From the NCBI GenBank assembly GCA_015178975.1, contig WHVD01000023.1:620001-684000 (forward strand): DNA of 64,000 nt, given 5' to 3'. Numbering within the stretch: position 1 is the first letter of the stretch; each line of letters begins with the position of its first letter. A model generated the notes under the pieces. It had not been told where the DNA came from. It saw only the letters and a program-made list of their open reading frames with translations, and made no database searches. The DNA is from Hysterangium stoloniferum (taxonomy: Eukaryota; Basidiomycota; Agaricomycetes; Hysterangiales; Hysterangiaceae). Made by a program: the position numbers and the translations under genes. Below, one piece after another: positions 19,923 through 29,256 of this stretch.

Positions 19923-20741
19923 TGTTAGGATACACACTCAGGCCGGGTTTCCGGAGAAACCTGCGGGATATCCGGTAGGACTTGGCTTCAGCTTATAGGC
20001 TGCGCCCTCGCTAGATCGTATTGTCCAATTTCAGACAGGCGGACGGGAATCCCGGGGAGTCCGGGCAGGGGTTCGTGGGTTGTGAGTTGTAGGTCGTGAG
20101 TCGTGAGTCGTGAATCGAGATAGTCGAGAGAGATAGATGCGCCGGAGCCCGTGGGCTCCGACTAGTGCGAGCGGTCTGATAAGAGTAGGGTTTAGAGAGG
20201 AAAATGTATTAGATTACTGGGGGGAATCTAAGCTAATTTTCTGACTGGATTGTATGTACAACATCTGCCAGTTTATATAGACCGTGGAATGCATGACATA
20301 CCGAATCCAGTAATAATGAGACGAAACGAGCAAAACATAAAACGGGAATAGTAAACACCAAATTGGTGTTAGGAACGGGACGGAACGGAGCGGAGTCCGA
20401 ATCGTGACAAAGCATAACCCATAACGGGAAATGGAGCGGGAGCGGAGTCCTAAATCGTGACAGGTCATTTGACTAAAACGGGAACGGGGCTCGATTAGAG
20501 CGGTGACGGGATTCTAAGCAGGTTCCGGTGACTGATGCGTGGGACCAAGACGGACATAGACAGAGACGGGGTCCGGGGGAAGTCCGGTGACTGATATGAG
20601 TCTTAATGAGGTCGAACGTAACGAGTCTTGACGTAACGGAGTCCGGGCGGGAAATCCTATAAACAGACGATTGGTGCTTGTAGCGCGTGGGGGCATACGA
20701 GTTAGTGCCCGGAGTCCGGCGGGATTTGTCCGGTCGTAACA
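19923..20741 (-). mobile_element. Solo LTR (819 bp, family L1, inverted) in the VPS15 copy, duplication GAAAG
   Basis: It begins TGTTAGGATAC and ends GTCGTAACA. GAAAG flanks it at 19918-19922 and 20742-20746. It is the inverted counterpart of the solo LTR at 176-949. The VPS15 frame reads ...VDKWK before it and AWIVVAS after it, joining exactly when it is excised with one duplication. Confidence 0.93.
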
Positions 20742-21478
20742 GAAAGCATGGATTGTGGTTGCATCCATCACCGGAGTTCTCACGTTATGGGACATACGTT
20801 TTGGCTTGCTTATCAAGAGCTGGAAGACTCGCGTCGCGTCGCCTGGAAAACCCCTTCAAATACATAACTGCATCATTTACCCAACGAAAGGTCGTGGCTG
20901 GTGGGTAATGGTTGCTCCCAGGGTACGACCGTCCCCTCAATTGGAGGGAATGGTATTGAGTCATGGGACATCGAACAACAAGCTTAGTTGAGACATATGA
21001 AACTCGGGAATCTTCCCCTGACACATCGACATCGATGTTGCAGATCGGGGCTGCTCCCTCGGTCATCTCCGGAATAGAGGCTGAAAAGATTCCCACGGCT
21101 GCTATTGCAGTCCTTGTGCGCTCCCGCACTGCGCTCTCATCCCCCGATGGTGCGACTCCGTCTGCTAGCGAGACAGATTCATCGCGATAGACTGCGTGGA
21201 CACAGCCTGGTATATGAACAATGGTTGGGTTTATGGATTTTTCAGGCCTTGCAGGTTCCACCCGATCCGATGTGGGTATTGAACACATTGGGGAAGGTGG
21301 GGGAAGTGTATTAAAAACAAGGGGAGGCGGTTTCATCGTGACAGGCTCGGAAGATAGAAAACTGCGGCTGTGGGATTTGGGTAGTAGAGAGTATTTGCAA
21401 CTAATATATATTAGCTAAACTGAATTGTTCCTAAGTAATAGAAGAAGTGGAGCGTGACTAATGACACCATCGGTTCCG

Positions 21479-21721
21479 TATGGCAAGCCAGAGTGATCAG
21501 CCTCAATTTTGAACTGCCGTATCGGCAAATAGTAGGACCTCGTATACCCCCCGGCTATATAGCCACAAGATAAACAAGCCATGAGCGCAAATAGCAAGCA
21601 ATGCATCACAAAGCGGAAATGTACAAGGTGTAGCACAGAAACATTGTATATACTTTTGAAAATTGATTATGTTAACAGGATTCTCATAGAATTTAACTAA
21701 ATACTAAGAAGGTAGACTAGA
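21479..21721 (+). repeat. Left TIR (243 bp)
   Basis: Inverted copy of 26960-27202. It starts TATGGCAAGCC and ends GTAGACTAGA. Mismatches seen include GAGTGATC versus GAGCGATC near the tip and AAGAAGG versus AAGCAGG near the inner end. Confidence 0.93.
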
Positions 21722-22639
21722 CAATCCAGCGTCCATAACACAAGTCATGATTTTGGTGAATTCCGTGAGTACCGTCTTATGGTCATTACAACGGTATTTC
21801 ATACTTGATATATGCGAAGATGCCACCTCACCGGACATATTTCCTTCATTTTCAAGAACTCCTAGCTCGCCATCCGAAAGAGGAGAGACTGATATACTTG
21901 CAGACACCTTGCGACCTTCACCTTTGTCGTCTGACCAGAATGTGCATCCACCCGTGAATGGTAATTCAACAGTTACAAGTCTCTCTACTCTTTGGGGTGA
22001 AATGTATGGTGAAACACCAAGCTTTGACCGAGGCCTCACAGCAGGGATGCCTGATCTGTGAGACGCCGATCCTGAACAAAGATGATCCTGGCACCCTTAT
22101 TGTACACCCACTTATAATAGTAACAGTAGAAACACTGGAGAGACATTCAGCCAGCTCGTCTGCAGACGAGCAGCACAAGTGGATGCGCAAAGGGCAAGGT
22201 CACCATCACCAGACACGGTACTTCAAGCTGCATATCAATTCCCGTGATCCTATGTCGATGAACCAGATGTAGCCAGATGTACAGTATACCAAAGTCTTAG
22301 ACTGTTTGGAGGAGTTGCAAAATGAAAAGGTGTGCCCACTACATTACTGATTATTCTGATGGTAAATTTCTCACAAATCCAGTGTAGATCATAGTTCAGG
22401 AGCCATCAAGAAAGATGAAAATATCCTATATCACTGAAAACAAGCATAGAAATGACAGTTATGAAAACTTGTTTGATTCTGAGTTGATGACTCCAACCCT
22501 TCCAAGTTCTATGAGCCCAGTAAAATATATTAATGCAGCCACAAAGGATGTGGAAGCTCCCCCAAGAAAGTGACAACTTTCGGTATGATGACTAATGTAT
22601 TCCATCCAATATGACTCAAAACAATTCTAATCAAAGTAA

Positions 22640-23878
22640 AATAGCAGGGATCTGACATCCAATCTCCACCACACATCCGGCCATGCACTATTATCCAATC
22701 CCAGATTGGCTTTGCAGCTACAAGTACCAGTCCCTTAGTACAGTTGTCTGCACAACTTTCTCATGGCAAATCAATCTCACCGACTACTGATGATATGCGG
22801 CATGCACTTCAAGCCCAGACAGCTCCCTCAAAGAAAATTGTTAAATCTATTTGTGTGTATATGTCTTAATACTTAATTTACCTGCCATAATTATGACTGA
22901 CATCCCAATTGTAGTTAATACCAAGGCATTCAAGTGCACCTTCTATCCAACAGGGGATGCTGACTTTTTAAGTCTTATCAGTTGTGCAAACCCATTTGAT
23001 GCAGTCAAGGATTGTTCTGGCCCTACAATATTGACATTGATGTATGACCGGGTTGCAAAACCTAAATATGGTGCATTTAAGCAAGCATCATTTGGGCATT
23101 TGGACTGCCCAGCACTCGGAAAATCTAACTCTGTTATTGTTAAACAGTGTTGGTATACCTGTACAGCTACAGGGGCCCGTCTTACCTACGATAATCACAC
23201 TCAAGTCACAAAGCTCAGCAGCGAAATTAATTGCCTGCGTTGGGCATCAGCTTTAATGGGTCTTGTATATGACCACATCAACAGTTATCAAAAAACGAAT
23301 GGTCCAACACCACTTGCAATTCCCCACATGTGTTTTGTCAAAAGTGCACTTGCTATAGCTGAAGATAGTCACGATGCATTTTTACTTGAAGAGGTTATTG
23401 ACGACACTGCTGATGGGGCCTTTGTCAAGTATATTGGAAATGGATCTGCCAAGCCATATAATTTTCTCGAAGGAGATGATATTCACAGAGGTGAATTCCT
23501 CAGCTTCTCTCAACATCTGCAATACCTGAAGACAGATGGACTTGCTTTTGTAAGTGATTTTCAAGGTATGTCACTATATCATACTGATGTGATATATTCT
23601 TCTAATGTGTTTTTTTCGAGGTGGACATCACTTATTGACCGATCCTCAACTTATAACATCACCGTAAGTTTATGAAATCTCCTTTGGATTAAACTGAATT
23701 TAGATTGTACAGTGATCTGGGTTCCATATTTTCAGATGGAAACCTCAATTCAGCTTACATCTCCTTCACTTCTGATCATACCTGCAACAAATTTTGCGAA
23801 CTGTTTGGACTGGCAGGATTTTCCGACTCGCTGACTTCTGTTGTTCACATCCAGAAAGATAGAAACATTTATGGATAG
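22640..23878 (+). CDS. Alpha-kinase (MHCK/EF2K-type) carried by the TIR element
   Basis: Reliable exons are 22915..23565, 23621..23663 and 23704..23878. An upstream exon ends at 22852, and the gene's 5' end is not resolved. The spliced frame has the family's landmarks: FKQASFGHL, the lysine in VIVKQCW, LLEEVIDD, AFVKYIGNGS, EFLSFSQHLQYLKT, a catalytic SDFQGG, LLTDPQ, SDGN and the zinc-module tail SDHTCNKFCELFGL. All key residues appear present, so the domain may be active. Introns are 40-62 bp and GT-AG. Alpha-kinases phosphorylate Ser/Thr and are unrelated in sequence to ordinary kinases; the family is expanded in mushrooms. Its place inside a complete transposable unit suggests it is element cargo or part of the mobility machinery. 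The region 21722-22640 has frames with a CLICETPIL piece that could belong to an N-terminal zinc ribbon, but I could not join it. Confidence 0.85.
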
Positions 23879-23926
23879 AAAAGTGACATGTTATTCTGAA
23901 TGAAGCTATTATGACAATTATATCAT

Positions 23927-25658
23927 TTAAAATGTGTTATCCTCATCTACCTCATCCTCTGACTCATCATCAGTAAAGTCTGCATACTCAGGAGATGGTC
24001 CCGTACTATTTATCAATGCGGAACCATTCGAGCCACCAATATAACTGGCATTCATACCAAGGTCAAGTGGTTGACCCAGTCGGAAAGCCTCCATGTTCGG
24101 CAAAAGAGGCATGTTGTCCGGTTCTTGTCCATATGTCATGTTGTGATGGGTAATAATGTCTGTAAGCTGTTCTTTGGGCCCTTCATGCAAACGTTCCAAA
24201 AGAGTACGAAAAATGTTCCAAAATGTCTCGATGGAAACCTCTGGTTGACCAATTGCAGAAGAGAGGTTGCTGAGATGTTCATGGAATATCTGTGGAACTA
24301 ATTCAAAGACGGGATGGTCTGGAGGAGCATACCGTGCTTCCATCTCATCAAACAACTCAGGAGGAACAGGTATCTTGAAATCAATGGCACTGAAGTGCGA
24401 TGGATTGGCACGTATCAATGCAGGGATGCCATGTGGTAAGAGCTTATGTCGAGAAGCACGAGGAGCTGACTTGTTCTTGAGACTAACCCAACGGTCAACT
24501 TCAGTCTGCAGCCAGGGGATTGCAATCCATCGAAAAAGAAGACTAATGTGTGGAGGTTAGAGAGGCCCGACATGTTTAATATACTTAATGTACTTACTTT
24601 TCTAGAACATCATTCACATCATACCAACCACTGTTCACACCATATTCTAAGATATCCTCAAAACCTGGAGAGAAGTCCCTTCGGAAGATTGACCATTTGA
24701 TTTCAGAAAGAATGTTATTGTGCCCTGTTGCAAAGCGATGCTGAAGAGTACCCAAAAGGTTTGGATCGAGACGGTGCCGAATTGATGTGTGTGCATTTGC
24801 AACACCATAGTTTTCTGTTCCTCGGTCACTTTGAGTTATGATTGGAACCCCTATTGAGTCACATATGAAATATTCCCAGTCCCAACTATAGAGTACATAC
24901 CTCCAATTCGCCGACAGGTGTCCAAGTAGTATTTCGCAATAAGCCTTGGATTCTTGTTTGTCCACCAGACTTTAAGCCAATTGATTTCACCGGAAAATGC
25001 TTCTATTCCAGCATGCAGCCACAGACCAAATCGTCCCCATTTGTCATGCTGATCTTGAGGCCACACATCATTGATGCCTGCTGTCCAAAGACGGTGTCTG
25101 TGAAATCCACGACGACGGCGTTGTTTGACCTCATCAGGTTCTACTATCCTGAGCAGCTGACTGATCGTTTGACTGGACCCATTTGAGAAAAAGCATATTC
25201 TGCAGCTACAAAATTGACCTACCGAGATGCACGTATGTCATGTTCTATTCGAAGTGACTTACAAATACCCTCAATCCCACGTAGAGGAAAGCACTTTCGA
25301 ATTTCATATATTTTGTTGTAAATGGTTTCTGGAGTATGATTTTGTTGACGGGTCGAGAGCATGCCCCACTGTTTTCGTAGTCTTCGAATAGTGATAACAC
25401 TGTAAGAATGAAGCCAGTGATAATATTTCGATGACATCAAAGGTCCAATATACCTCAATCCATAATTGTTAGTGTCATAGTGTTCCTTGAGCAGTTCAGC
25501 GATCTTTACATCTGACAAACCGAGTTCATAATACTGCCGGAGAGGTTCCTGTATACTCTCATCCGGTGCTGAAAATACATAAGATCAGATGGGATGAAAA
25601 TGTTGATAAGGATACAACAACTCTCACGACGTGGCTTATGTTGGTTTTTTTGAGGCAT
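23927..25658 (-). CDS. Retroviral-type (rve-like) integrase/transposase, six exons, 487 aa
   Basis: Model: complement(23927..24542, 24598..24850, 24901..25172, 25223..25399, 25454..25568, 25628..25658). The total is 1464 nt in one uninterrupted frame, and all introns are GT-AG of 50-59 bp. The N-terminal part has a helix-turn-helix-like region (LKEHYDTNNYG, then TIRRLRKQWGML). The catalytic core reads NDVWPQDQHDKWGRFG, AGIEAFSGEI, ITQSDRGTEN and ILSEIKW. That offers two Asp and a Glu 40 residues after the second Asp. The C-terminus is Asp/Glu-rich. The protein resembles the integrase-core family common in Agaricomycetes and is likely the element's transposase. I assign the catalytic triad by motif position only. 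Confidence 0.88.
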
Positions 25659-26959
25659 CAAGATACCAAGTGAAGGGCGTCAAAACATGTGACTTAGCTG
25701 TCAACACGAACCACGACTCTGCTTTTGCAATAGTGTGTTCTCCCATTATGTGTTCACTGCACATATCCTGGCTGTCTTGCTCCTGCTCACTTGTTCTCAT
25801 TACTTCCAGTGGCTATTCATGGTCTCTCTATGATAGCAAGAGTCTCCTAATGCAATCTCTAAATCTACTTTCTCTCCAAACTAACTGCTTTACTATCGCC
25901 AACCACTCAGTTTATTTCACAAATTAGGCCTTATGCACACTTATAAATCTTCCTGATCATGGTCCAAGACACAGAATTCCCTTTGTGATCTCGACGTGTA
26001 CATTGCTACCTCTGAAGTTCAACCCTCCATTCAGAATGATAGGCCATTCTCTGCTCCTCAACCGTCAAGCAAGCTCTCCTCTCTCCTATTCGCAAGCTCG
26101 CACCAGATACCATCGAGCAGATCTTTGGGCTATGCAACAGTGGTGAAATAGTCCCTGGCCAATATTAAGTCATCGCCGCCGCACCGATCCTACCCAGTCA
26201 AATCCACAGAAAACGGCGTCACGTCGCTTTGACAACACCCCAGTTATGCCAACATCACACCTGAGCGCACCACTGAGCCGACACACCCAAAGTAAACCCT
26301 TTCATTATCATACCAGAGTGGCTCAGGTGCTCTGACGTACTTCCCATTGACATCTATCTTGGTGAGGGCTTGGACAAGTCTGCAATGCGCCTAAGAACAC
26401 TATTACCTTCCATACATAGATAGTTCTATTGGGCAATCAGTTCCATTGCTGCCATCCTTTACATGTTACAGATTCATTCCCCAGTGTCCTCATGGCCATC
26501 TTTCCCACTGGCCGACGCAGAGATGCCTCACGCGACTTTCGTGTCATTCCCACTACCTCTTCCATTACACCCACTCGTCCTCGGTCAGATCACCACTCCC
26601 AATCTCAAAAGCATCAACGTTTATCATCCATCAACCTTCCCCAATTCATTATGTATGAACTATTCATGACTGTGCCCTCACACATGTTCTCGACCATTAC
26701 GGAGCAAAGCAGGAGCAGGACCACCGCAAGATATGAAATGCATGCTTGGTCTCGTGATTCTGTGACGAGACTGTTTTCGGTCTGAGTGTAGAAGGCCTGA
26801 TTTGGGATTTGACGATGAAGGCATAAGAGAAGGCACTCAAGAACAATTCCACAAAGTGAACTTTTATTAACAAGCCAGCAGATGCCCACCCAATCCCAGA
26901 AGTGCTTATATCTTCCCATTATATCACCGCCTCATTCTCGTCTCCCATCCACCCTCGTA
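25659..26959. other. Interior of the TIR element without a recognised gene
   Basis: Plus-strand frames near 26429-26785 and 25631-25927 have no recognisable motif. This probably includes the promoter and 5' flank of the integrase gene. Confidence 0.5.
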
Positions 26960-27202
26960 TCTAGTCTACCTGCTTAGTATTTAGTTAAATTCTATGAGAA
27001 TCCTGTTAACATAATCAATTTTCAAAAGTATATACAATGTTTCTGTGCTACACCTTGTACCTTTCCGCTTTGTGATGCATTGCTTGCTATTTGCGCTCAT
27101 GGCTTGTTTATCTTGTGGCTATATAGCCGGGGGGTATACGAGGTCCTACTATTTGCCGATACGGCAGTTCAAAATTGAGGCTGATCGCTCCGGCTTGCCA
27201 TA
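26960..27202 (-). repeat. Right TIR (243 bp)
   Basis: Inverted copy of 21479-21721. It ends GGCTTGCCATA, followed by the GTTCCG duplication at 27203-27208. Confidence 0.93.
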
Positions 27203-27426
27203 GTTCCGAGACTATTACTCATGTCGACACCAGTCGCCCTGGCAGCCAGAATCAGCGGACAGCTTCAAGGACGAATCTCATCATCGACCACCAGCAGCAT
27301 CTGTTGAAGGCTCACCAAGACTGTATAACAGCCCTTGCGTGTATCGATTCACCCTTCCGCGGCGGTATCGTCAGCGGTGACAGGTCAGGTGTTGTGAAGG
27401 TGTGGCGCGTAGAGGAAGCCCAGTGA

Positions 27427-29256
27427 CAGAAAAATTCTTTGTATCTATTAGCGGTTTTTGCCGCAGGTCATGTATCCATTTCGCTTTTCAATTTTTTTTT
27501 GTCACATCGACTGGCACTTTGTTCCGTTTGATGCGCAACCACATCAGATTCAAGGGAATCTATGTAGAGATATATTGTGCGGGGAAACAGGGCGGAATGC
27601 ATTCGCTACTCTTTATTAAATCGAAATTGAGTTATAGATTAGCGAGGAGCGCCGGCCGCCCGGCGAACATGTGTTAGCCCGGAAGCATCCTTCTTCTATA
27701 CGTATTGGGCTATCTTGGCCTGTCGGTCGTATTATTGGACAAGGTAACAAAGCACCCCTCAGTAGAACTAACAAGGATATGCATATGGACTTTAAGGAAG
27801 AGGGACTGTGTGGTATGCAGCTTTTGCCATGTTGGTGTGATGAGACGCGTGGCCGTAGGGATGGGTTTCTTGACTCTCAGCCTAAACCACGTGGGTTTCT
27901 ACTCCGACTTCAGTTCAAAACGCAGTGCCTCCTAATTTGGGTTGTTCTTAATATAGGTCAGTTAATTGTTTTACCGGCGGATTTCTTGTGTTTGCGGTCG
28001 GAGCGCGAATATTAGTACGGCAACTCAACCTCCTGCGTATAAAGCCCTGCCTGGTGCCACCACTCTCTTCACCGTCCTACCCCTCTTCTCAACCCCCCCT
28101 TCCCCCCCAACGTCACATCAACGCAAACTCTAGCTTACTTGTTGCCTCATTGTCCTCTCTCAAGCCCCTTTGAAGCGTTATATCAAGCCCCTCCAGGTCA
28201 TCAAGCGTTATATCAACCCCCTCAAGGTCATCAAGCGTTATATCAGTTCAAGCCCAATACTGTTACTTTTTCTTGGCTGAGTTGCCCCCACGGTCGCTGT
28301 CTGCTATGAGAATCACTGAGTTTTTTGATGCATTCACTGATGGTATTGTTTGTAGCGTTATTGTCCTTTCAGAACCGACTTTTTCAAGCGTTTACTTACT
28401 TTGCTTTCGCTTCTTGAGTTTCTTGACTTGGCTCTCTGGCTTGATCAGCAATTCTGGGGGTAGGGCGGTAGCGGTAGCGGTAGCCCCCTGATGAGAGCTT
28501 TCGTCGGCTCGAAACCGTTACAATCTGTATTCCCTAGCCACCCTCTACCTTAGCTGACAAATTTCATATCTTTCATTCTCTCAATCCCTTATTCTCACCA
28601 ACAGGGCTGGGTTGCTGGCTCCCGACCCCTGCGGGGGTTGGGTGACTGTGAGCCCCATAAGTGTCTCGTTTATGTCATAGTATTATAAATACTATAGATT
28701 GCTTTGCTTTTTTTTCTATGTTTTCGCCGTTTTATAATATATATAACTTATAACCTATAATTATAATTATTTAAATATGATAAAAAAATTTCAATCATTA
28801 AAAGCATTGCGAAGCAGTAAAGTAAAAGTTGAAGCTTGAGGGATGTCACGCTCTACCGGCTGAGCCGCGAAGGAGTTTCGTGATGCTAATGTATGATGGA
28901 TTGGTAAAGTCGGGTGGGAATGAGACGGCGTTACGTGTCAGGTGGGCAGAGGGATCGAAAGTCACAAATTTGTTGCCCTTAACAGTGAATTCTCCGCATC
29001 TAAGGAATGCAGCAAAAGCAAGCTTTACGCCAGCATCGATGTTGGGAGCATCCAGGGAAGACCCTGGATTGGAGTAAAAGACTAGGCGTTGGAGAATGGG
29101 AGGGTGATGGGTGCGACAGGGTGACGGGCTCGTTCACCGAAATAACGCTTGATACCCCGGATGACCCGCTGGACAAGAGGGGCCTCGACAGCGTGAAAGG
29201 GGAGGTCACAATCGACATGGAGGGATTTAACATGCCCAAGGTAGGACTTGATTGTT
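27427..29256. other. No gene recognised; short tandem and promoter-like repeats
   Basis: GCGTTATATCAA-containing units of about 27 bp occur three times at 28169-28250. At 28018-28060 a segment with ACTCAACCTCC and GTATAAAGCCCTGCCT looks like a TATA-containing promoter; a close copy lies at 30375-30410 next to the inverted-repeat element. No long frame has a recognisable product. Confidence 0.5.

Follow-up and report, generated by a model that had tools for sequence, protein, structure and literature searches.

Why would a fungal DNA transposon carry a protein kinase? The question is raised by a 64,000-nucleotide stretch of the genome of the truffle-like mushroom Hysterangium stoloniferum (assembly GCA_015178975.1, contig WHVD01000023.1, positions 620,001 to 684,000; hereafter the window), in which an original prediction, made from the letters alone, had placed a self-contained element pairing an integrase with an alpha-kinase. 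The element spans 21479-27202 of the window (5,724 bp) and is bounded, as had been claimed, by terminal inverted repeats (TIRs) of 243 nt each, 98% complementary with 4 mismatches, and by a 6-bp target-site duplication (TSD), GTTCCG, which is exact on both sides. The two genes lie tail to tail on opposite strands with 48 bp between their stop codons, again as predicted. Among the element translations tested only rva_4 and Alpha_kinase exceeded the Pfam cut-offs, and a Pfam scan of five further open reading frame (ORF) translations gave no match, in agreement with an element of just two recognisable genes. We consider it very probable that this is an autonomous IS3EU DNA transposon with the alpha-kinase as its second core gene, serving the element's own life cycle. 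To our knowledge, few DNA transposons encode a protein kinase that is under selection.

The integrase model of six exons and 487 amino acids is identical (100%) over its full length to a deposited H. stoloniferum protein (P0001); the gene is intact and encodes a DDE transposase whose predicted fold is that of a retroviral integrase. Compared through published descriptions, the element best fits the IS3EU superfamily by its ends, TSD and transposase. IS3EU elements are described as having TA..TA termini and usually 6-bp TSDs (PMC10045372), and the passage on TET+ IS3EU elements of rusts gives a 6-bp TSD, TIRs >30 bp and ends of the form TAYGG..CCRTA (PMC12730594); the window element and a second copy at C53 end in TATGG..CCATA, a diverged copy at C486 ends in TACGG..CCGTA, and the window TSD has the 6-bp length. 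IS3EU transposases are DDE enzymes akin to those of IS3/IS481 and lack the HHCC finger of retroviral integrases. Among relatives of the transposase, the HTH_21 profile matched P0037 above and P0045 below its cut-off, and IS481 or IS3 profiles gave weak, sub-cut-off matches in five of eight proteins. The list of fold matches for the integrase held neither an IS3 nor a Polinton protein, which excludes nothing, and its profile met only two acyl carrier proteins among PDB sequences (E 0.17-0.19), taken as chance. Scans of IMG/VR with the integrase and kinase alignments found no relatives, and a search of the genome with the PF24764 profile was uninformative, giving no matches for the controls either.

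The kinase was judged by the catalytic motifs of alpha-kinases. When spliced, its last three exons match Pfam PF02816 over positions 3-185 of 185 (E 1.5e-14, 55 bits, cut-off 21.3); DPQ, GNL and HTCNKFC are present and align with those of eEF2K, and K, H, D and Q are conserved in all 20 rows of the alignment, so the landmark motifs that had been claimed are indeed there. Intactness was demonstrated for the catalytic domain, which contains no stop, and to that extent only does the predicted intact kinase stand; the N-terminal exons have uncertain borders, and upstream exons are probable because the motif ALQAQTAPS recurs in several metagenomic relatives. Two kinase searches returned 58 and 156 relatives; among the matches listed (120 of the 156), P0178 is from Tricholoma matsutake. 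The profile of the kinase alignment (A3) had no match among PDB sequences, and the C-lobe is assigned on sequence, since the structure model made for P0143, a relative, is of poor quality from residue 213 onward. Other alpha-kinases are eEF2K, myosin heavy chain kinase A and the TRP-channel kinase; the window kinase differs from them in being transposon-encoded.

The original prediction implied that the two genes should recur as neighbours in the source genome, and they do, in two families. The left TIR as query gave 14 genome matches, the two arms of the window included, and the integrase gave 26 exon matches, which resolve into four loci of the window type (family 1: C146, which is the window copy, C53, C37 and C40), four short relatives and two distant loci (C514 and C486). 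At all four family-1 loci the kinase adjoins the integrase tail to tail. Neither gene of the window copy contains a stop codon. At C53 two TIRs enclose both genes over 13,342 bp, with an exact 5-bp TSD, and the extra DNA inside is taken for later insertions; at C37 one TIR was found and extra DNA separates the kinase from the integrase; and at C40 the TIR of one end is split into two parts separated by about 5 kb. C24 holds a fifth kinase, with no integrase within the 9.9 kb read.

The second family emerged from a search of the genome with the Pfam alpha-kinase profile, which reads exon by exon, may miss other alpha-kinases and gave four matches with an E-value of 0.001 or less, in the window and at C180, C68 and C486, all of them within family-1 or family-2 elements. 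The family-2 element (C180, C68 and C486) is about 5 kb long with ends of the kind TACGGTGTCCCAACTGT, variants of the C486 termini occurring at other ends of the family. Its integrase shares 24% identity with that of the window over 235 columns and scores 22.6 bits with rva_4, just under the 26-bit cut-off. Five copies were read at both ends, of which C532, C486 and one C180 copy have an exact 5-bp TSD and C68 has one of 6 bp with one mismatch. Family-2 DNA searches gave at least 50 integrase matches, in 38 places, and at least 29 kinase matches, in 22 places. Seventeen of the integrase places cover 70% or more of the query; 13 of these have a tail-to-tail kinase that spans 66% or more of its own query and lies -2 to 114 bp away, and two (C535 and C514) retain a kinase stub at 90-97 bp. 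The kinase, which had been called constant cargo, is thus near-constant in this genome, some copies lacking it or keeping only a stub.

One alternative is that the two families acquired different alpha-kinases independently and that their shared layout is convergence. The integrases find each other by BLASTP (E 3e-11) whereas the kinases give no significant match (E 0.20), as this would predict; however, both kinases belong to the same Pfam family and stand in the same relative order and orientation, and a faster divergence of the kinases, which family 2 suggests, may be explanation enough. We regard independent acquisition as unlikely, though not so unlikely that it can be passed over.

Selection on the two genes was estimated as the ratio of nonsynonymous to synonymous substitution rates (dN/dS) by the Nei-Gojobori method, using codons from tblastn alignments with stops left out. 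The kinase is under purifying selection in both families. Comparison of the window with C53, C37 and C40 gave dN/dS of 0.33, 0.39 and 0.37 for the integrase and 0.29, 0.39 and 0.27 for the kinase; among the three decayed copies themselves the values rose to 0.59-0.80 and 0.52-0.73, respectively, as expected after death, and a value of 0.57 came from comparing the window kinase with the relic at C24. In family 2, C68 against C486 yielded 0.089 for the integrase (at dS 0.80) and 0.19 for the kinase (at dS 0.67), the kinase ratio being about twice that of the transposase; C68 against C180 yielded 0.27 and 0.32, and C180 against C486b, a pair of very low divergence, about 0.77 for both genes. The family-2 integrase is free of stops in C68, C486, C180 and C486b and has four in C514.

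These ratios, well under 1 in both families, already strain the idea of the kinase as a chance passenger, derived from a host gene that an ancestral copy captured a single time and that has since travelled along without use. Copies that lack the kinase or keep only a stub, the decay of the family-1 sister copies and the multiplication of short kinase-free copies would all suit a passenger; the same tail-to-tail layout around integrases only 24% identical, and the publication of the pair for other IS3EU families in a passage of PMC12730594, speak against it, and we consider it very improbable. At least as hard to credit is a benefit to the host for which the element would be retained. In its favor, the kinase is conserved, and alpha-kinases are expanded in rusts according to PMC4469406. 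The decayed copies and short derivatives, however, look like ordinary transposon turnover.

Polintons, or Mavericks, have 6-bp TSDs, long TIRs and genes for an integrase, a DNA polymerase B, a protease, a packaging ATPase and capsid proteins. The original prediction saw a resemblance, and a degenerate Polinton that had lost its replication and capsid genes would share the 6-bp TSD, the long TIRs and an integrase of the same retroviral-type fold; but the window element is only 5.7 kb, its TATGG..CCATA termini, TSD and transposase best fit IS3EU, its relatives match HTH_21 and weakly the IS3/IS481 profiles, and the ORFs tested matched neither the Polinton genes, whose replication and capsid members had rightly been reported missing, nor any other Pfam gene, which leaves this origin a negligible probability. 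The termini, the relatives and the gene content of the element led us to set aside both Polinton/Maverick and Ginger.

A number of observations weigh against an IS3EU transposon in which the kinase is a second core gene. Three of the four family-1 copies carry stops (in the integrase alignment 8 in C53, 5 in C37 and 3 in C40, and one each in the kinase), and the C40 kinase has lost its core. Family-2 kinases have no stop in C68, one in C486, two in C180 and one in C486b. Two of the 17 longer family-2 integrase places (C539 and C121) show no trace of a kinase, 19 of the 21 shorter places lack one (the other two have it), and five of the 22 kinase places have no adjoining integrase; besides, the copy counts are not independent events, because copies within one family share ancestry. 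The predicted 6-bp duplication, exact in the window, is 5 bp at several copies and absent at the C113 derivative, and in the other C180 copy it is ambiguous, with none at one candidate end and 5 bp at another. The window transposase itself matches neither the HTH_21 nor the IS481/IS3 profiles. At the DPQ position of the kinase, D is found in 10 of the 16 alignment rows with a letter there, many of these predicted proteins seeming to run into introns at that point. Family-1-type queries found no kinase beside the integrase-like fragments at C441, C17, C129 and C312, which says little because these queries overlooked the family-2 kinases as well. Finally, the kinase does not define the superfamily, since the passage on Styx of Zymoseptoria, an element with an IS3EU-assigned DDE transposase, a 6-bp TSD and TIRs, lists none, its three other ORFs encoding GATA, CCHC and DUF3577 proteins (PMC10853768).

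We nevertheless favor the kinase as a gene serving the element's own life cycle, because purifying selection has kept it through much divergence. As in the IS3EU family, the transposase would bind the TIRs and join the element ends to the target with an offset of 5-6 bp, so producing the TSD, and the alpha-kinase would most likely phosphorylate a nuclear target. We infer both that target and the direction of the effect. Our first choice, held at somewhat less than even confidence, would be host chromatin or silencing factors, an anti-silencing role being favored because TET enzymes of the same superfamily offer an analogy; the transposase or its host partners may be the target nearly as probably. 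If the kinase serves the element, this would point to phosphorylation as a means for a transposon to deal with silencing or to regulate its transposase, and the strongly differing alpha-kinase counts among basidiomycetes could be explained, with a large expansion of the family in rusts and no member in Microbotryomycetes in the account given by PMC4469406. There is perhaps an even chance that the wider picture holds, namely that this is the core selected kinase of kinase-bearing fungal IS3EU elements, that the alpha-kinase expansions of rusts and mushrooms are largely transposon cargo, and that the enzyme regulates chromatin silencing or the transposase, in a self-help class like TET/JBP.

The kinase-transposase pair has itself already been published, in a single passage that places a TET gene between oppositely oriented transposase and alpha-kinase genes in all TET+ IS3EU families (PMC12730594, 2025). 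The original prediction had been worded so that a published family with this pair would count against it, which is true in part. The TET+ IS3EU elements of rust fungi and Tuber indicum in that paper resemble the window element in the kinase opposite the transposase and, for the rust elements, in TSD, TIRs and end motif, but they hold a TET/JBP dioxygenase gene between the pair, where the window has only 48 bp and no TET gene. Alpha-kinase also appears in a protein-domain table of PMC5295586, and no further paper on the pair was found in the literature searched, Repbase reports and most subscription papers lying outside it. As far as we searched, what is new is the evidence that the kinase is no passenger, in the form of the constancy of the pair in two diverged families and of purifying selection. 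The features of the element are collected in Table 1.

Table 1. Features of the IS3EU-like element in window coordinates
Feature	Position	Strand	Basis
Left TSD copy, GTTCCG	21473..21478	.	read at element border
Left TIR, starts TATGG	21479..21721	+	inverted-repeat comparison, own-genome matches
Probable upstream kinase exon, motif ALQAQTAPS, borders uncertain	22648..22852	+	motif common to some relatives
Main alpha-kinase exon, from the N-lobe to SDFQ; start uncertain by 1 nt	22914..23565	+	Pfam match
Alpha-kinase exon with LTDPQ	23621..23663	+	Pfam match, eEF2K alignment
Final alpha-kinase exon with SDGNL, HTCNKFC and the stop codon	23713..23878	+	Pfam match, eEF2K alignment
Integrase exon 6 with stop	23927..24542	-	gene model; deposited protein P0001
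Integrase exon 5 (second D and E)	24598..24850	-	gene model, alignment
Integrase exon 4 (first D, WPQDQHDKW)	24901..25172	-	gene model, alignment
Integrase exon 3	25223..25399	-	gene model
Integrase exon 2	25454..25568	-	gene model
Integrase exon 1 with start	25628..25658	-	gene model
Right TIR, ends CCATA	26960..27202	-	inverted-repeat comparison
Right TSD copy, GTTCCG	27203..27208	.	read at element border

The flanks of the element (21179-21478 and 27203-27430) encode WD40 sequence. The host had been named as a VPS15 frame, and a VPS15 chain (PIK3R4) is among the solved matches, across the junction at E 4.7e-5; the best matches are other WD40 proteins, and the flank sequence is multi-copy, so that its identity as a single VPS15 gene is not established. 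Against the genome, the joined flanks gave at least 79 matches, 32 to a small intron repeat and 47 to WD40-type pieces, two of the latter being the window itself and the other 45 showing 79-95% identity where longer than 100 nt. Outside the window 19 flank matches span the junction. Three such loci were read: L061 and L063 align straight through with a single GTTCCG and no element, and L062 aligned beyond the junction only. The predicted empty sites thus exist at sister copies of the flank sequence, as paralogous empty sites and not as an allele.

Several minor observations concern the copies and the flanks. C441, C17, C129 and C312 (L039-L042) hold short integrase-like exons 53-60% like family 1, possibly another IS3EU family or relics. 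Near a TIR fragment at C518 (L017) lies a 794-bp inverted repeat of 100% identity (contig 20296-21089 and 21385-22178), the product either of a very recent insertion or of misassembly. In family 2, two C68 copies differ very little and may stem from a single duplication, and ten copies without kinase (C1, C68:76530, two in C124, C157, C222, C410, C509, C512 and C517) cover nearly the same 46-48% of the integrase query, as though a single deletion derivative had multiplied. The WD40 (VPS15-like) flank sequence is amplified in the genome, at C246, C191, C64, C112, C200, C30 and other places. The small intron repeat is a stretch of about 50 bp to the left of the element (about 21382-21434), and many of its 32 genome matches lie close together as inverted pairs, which gives it the look of a single arm from a small palindromic repeat resembling a miniature inverted-repeat transposable element.
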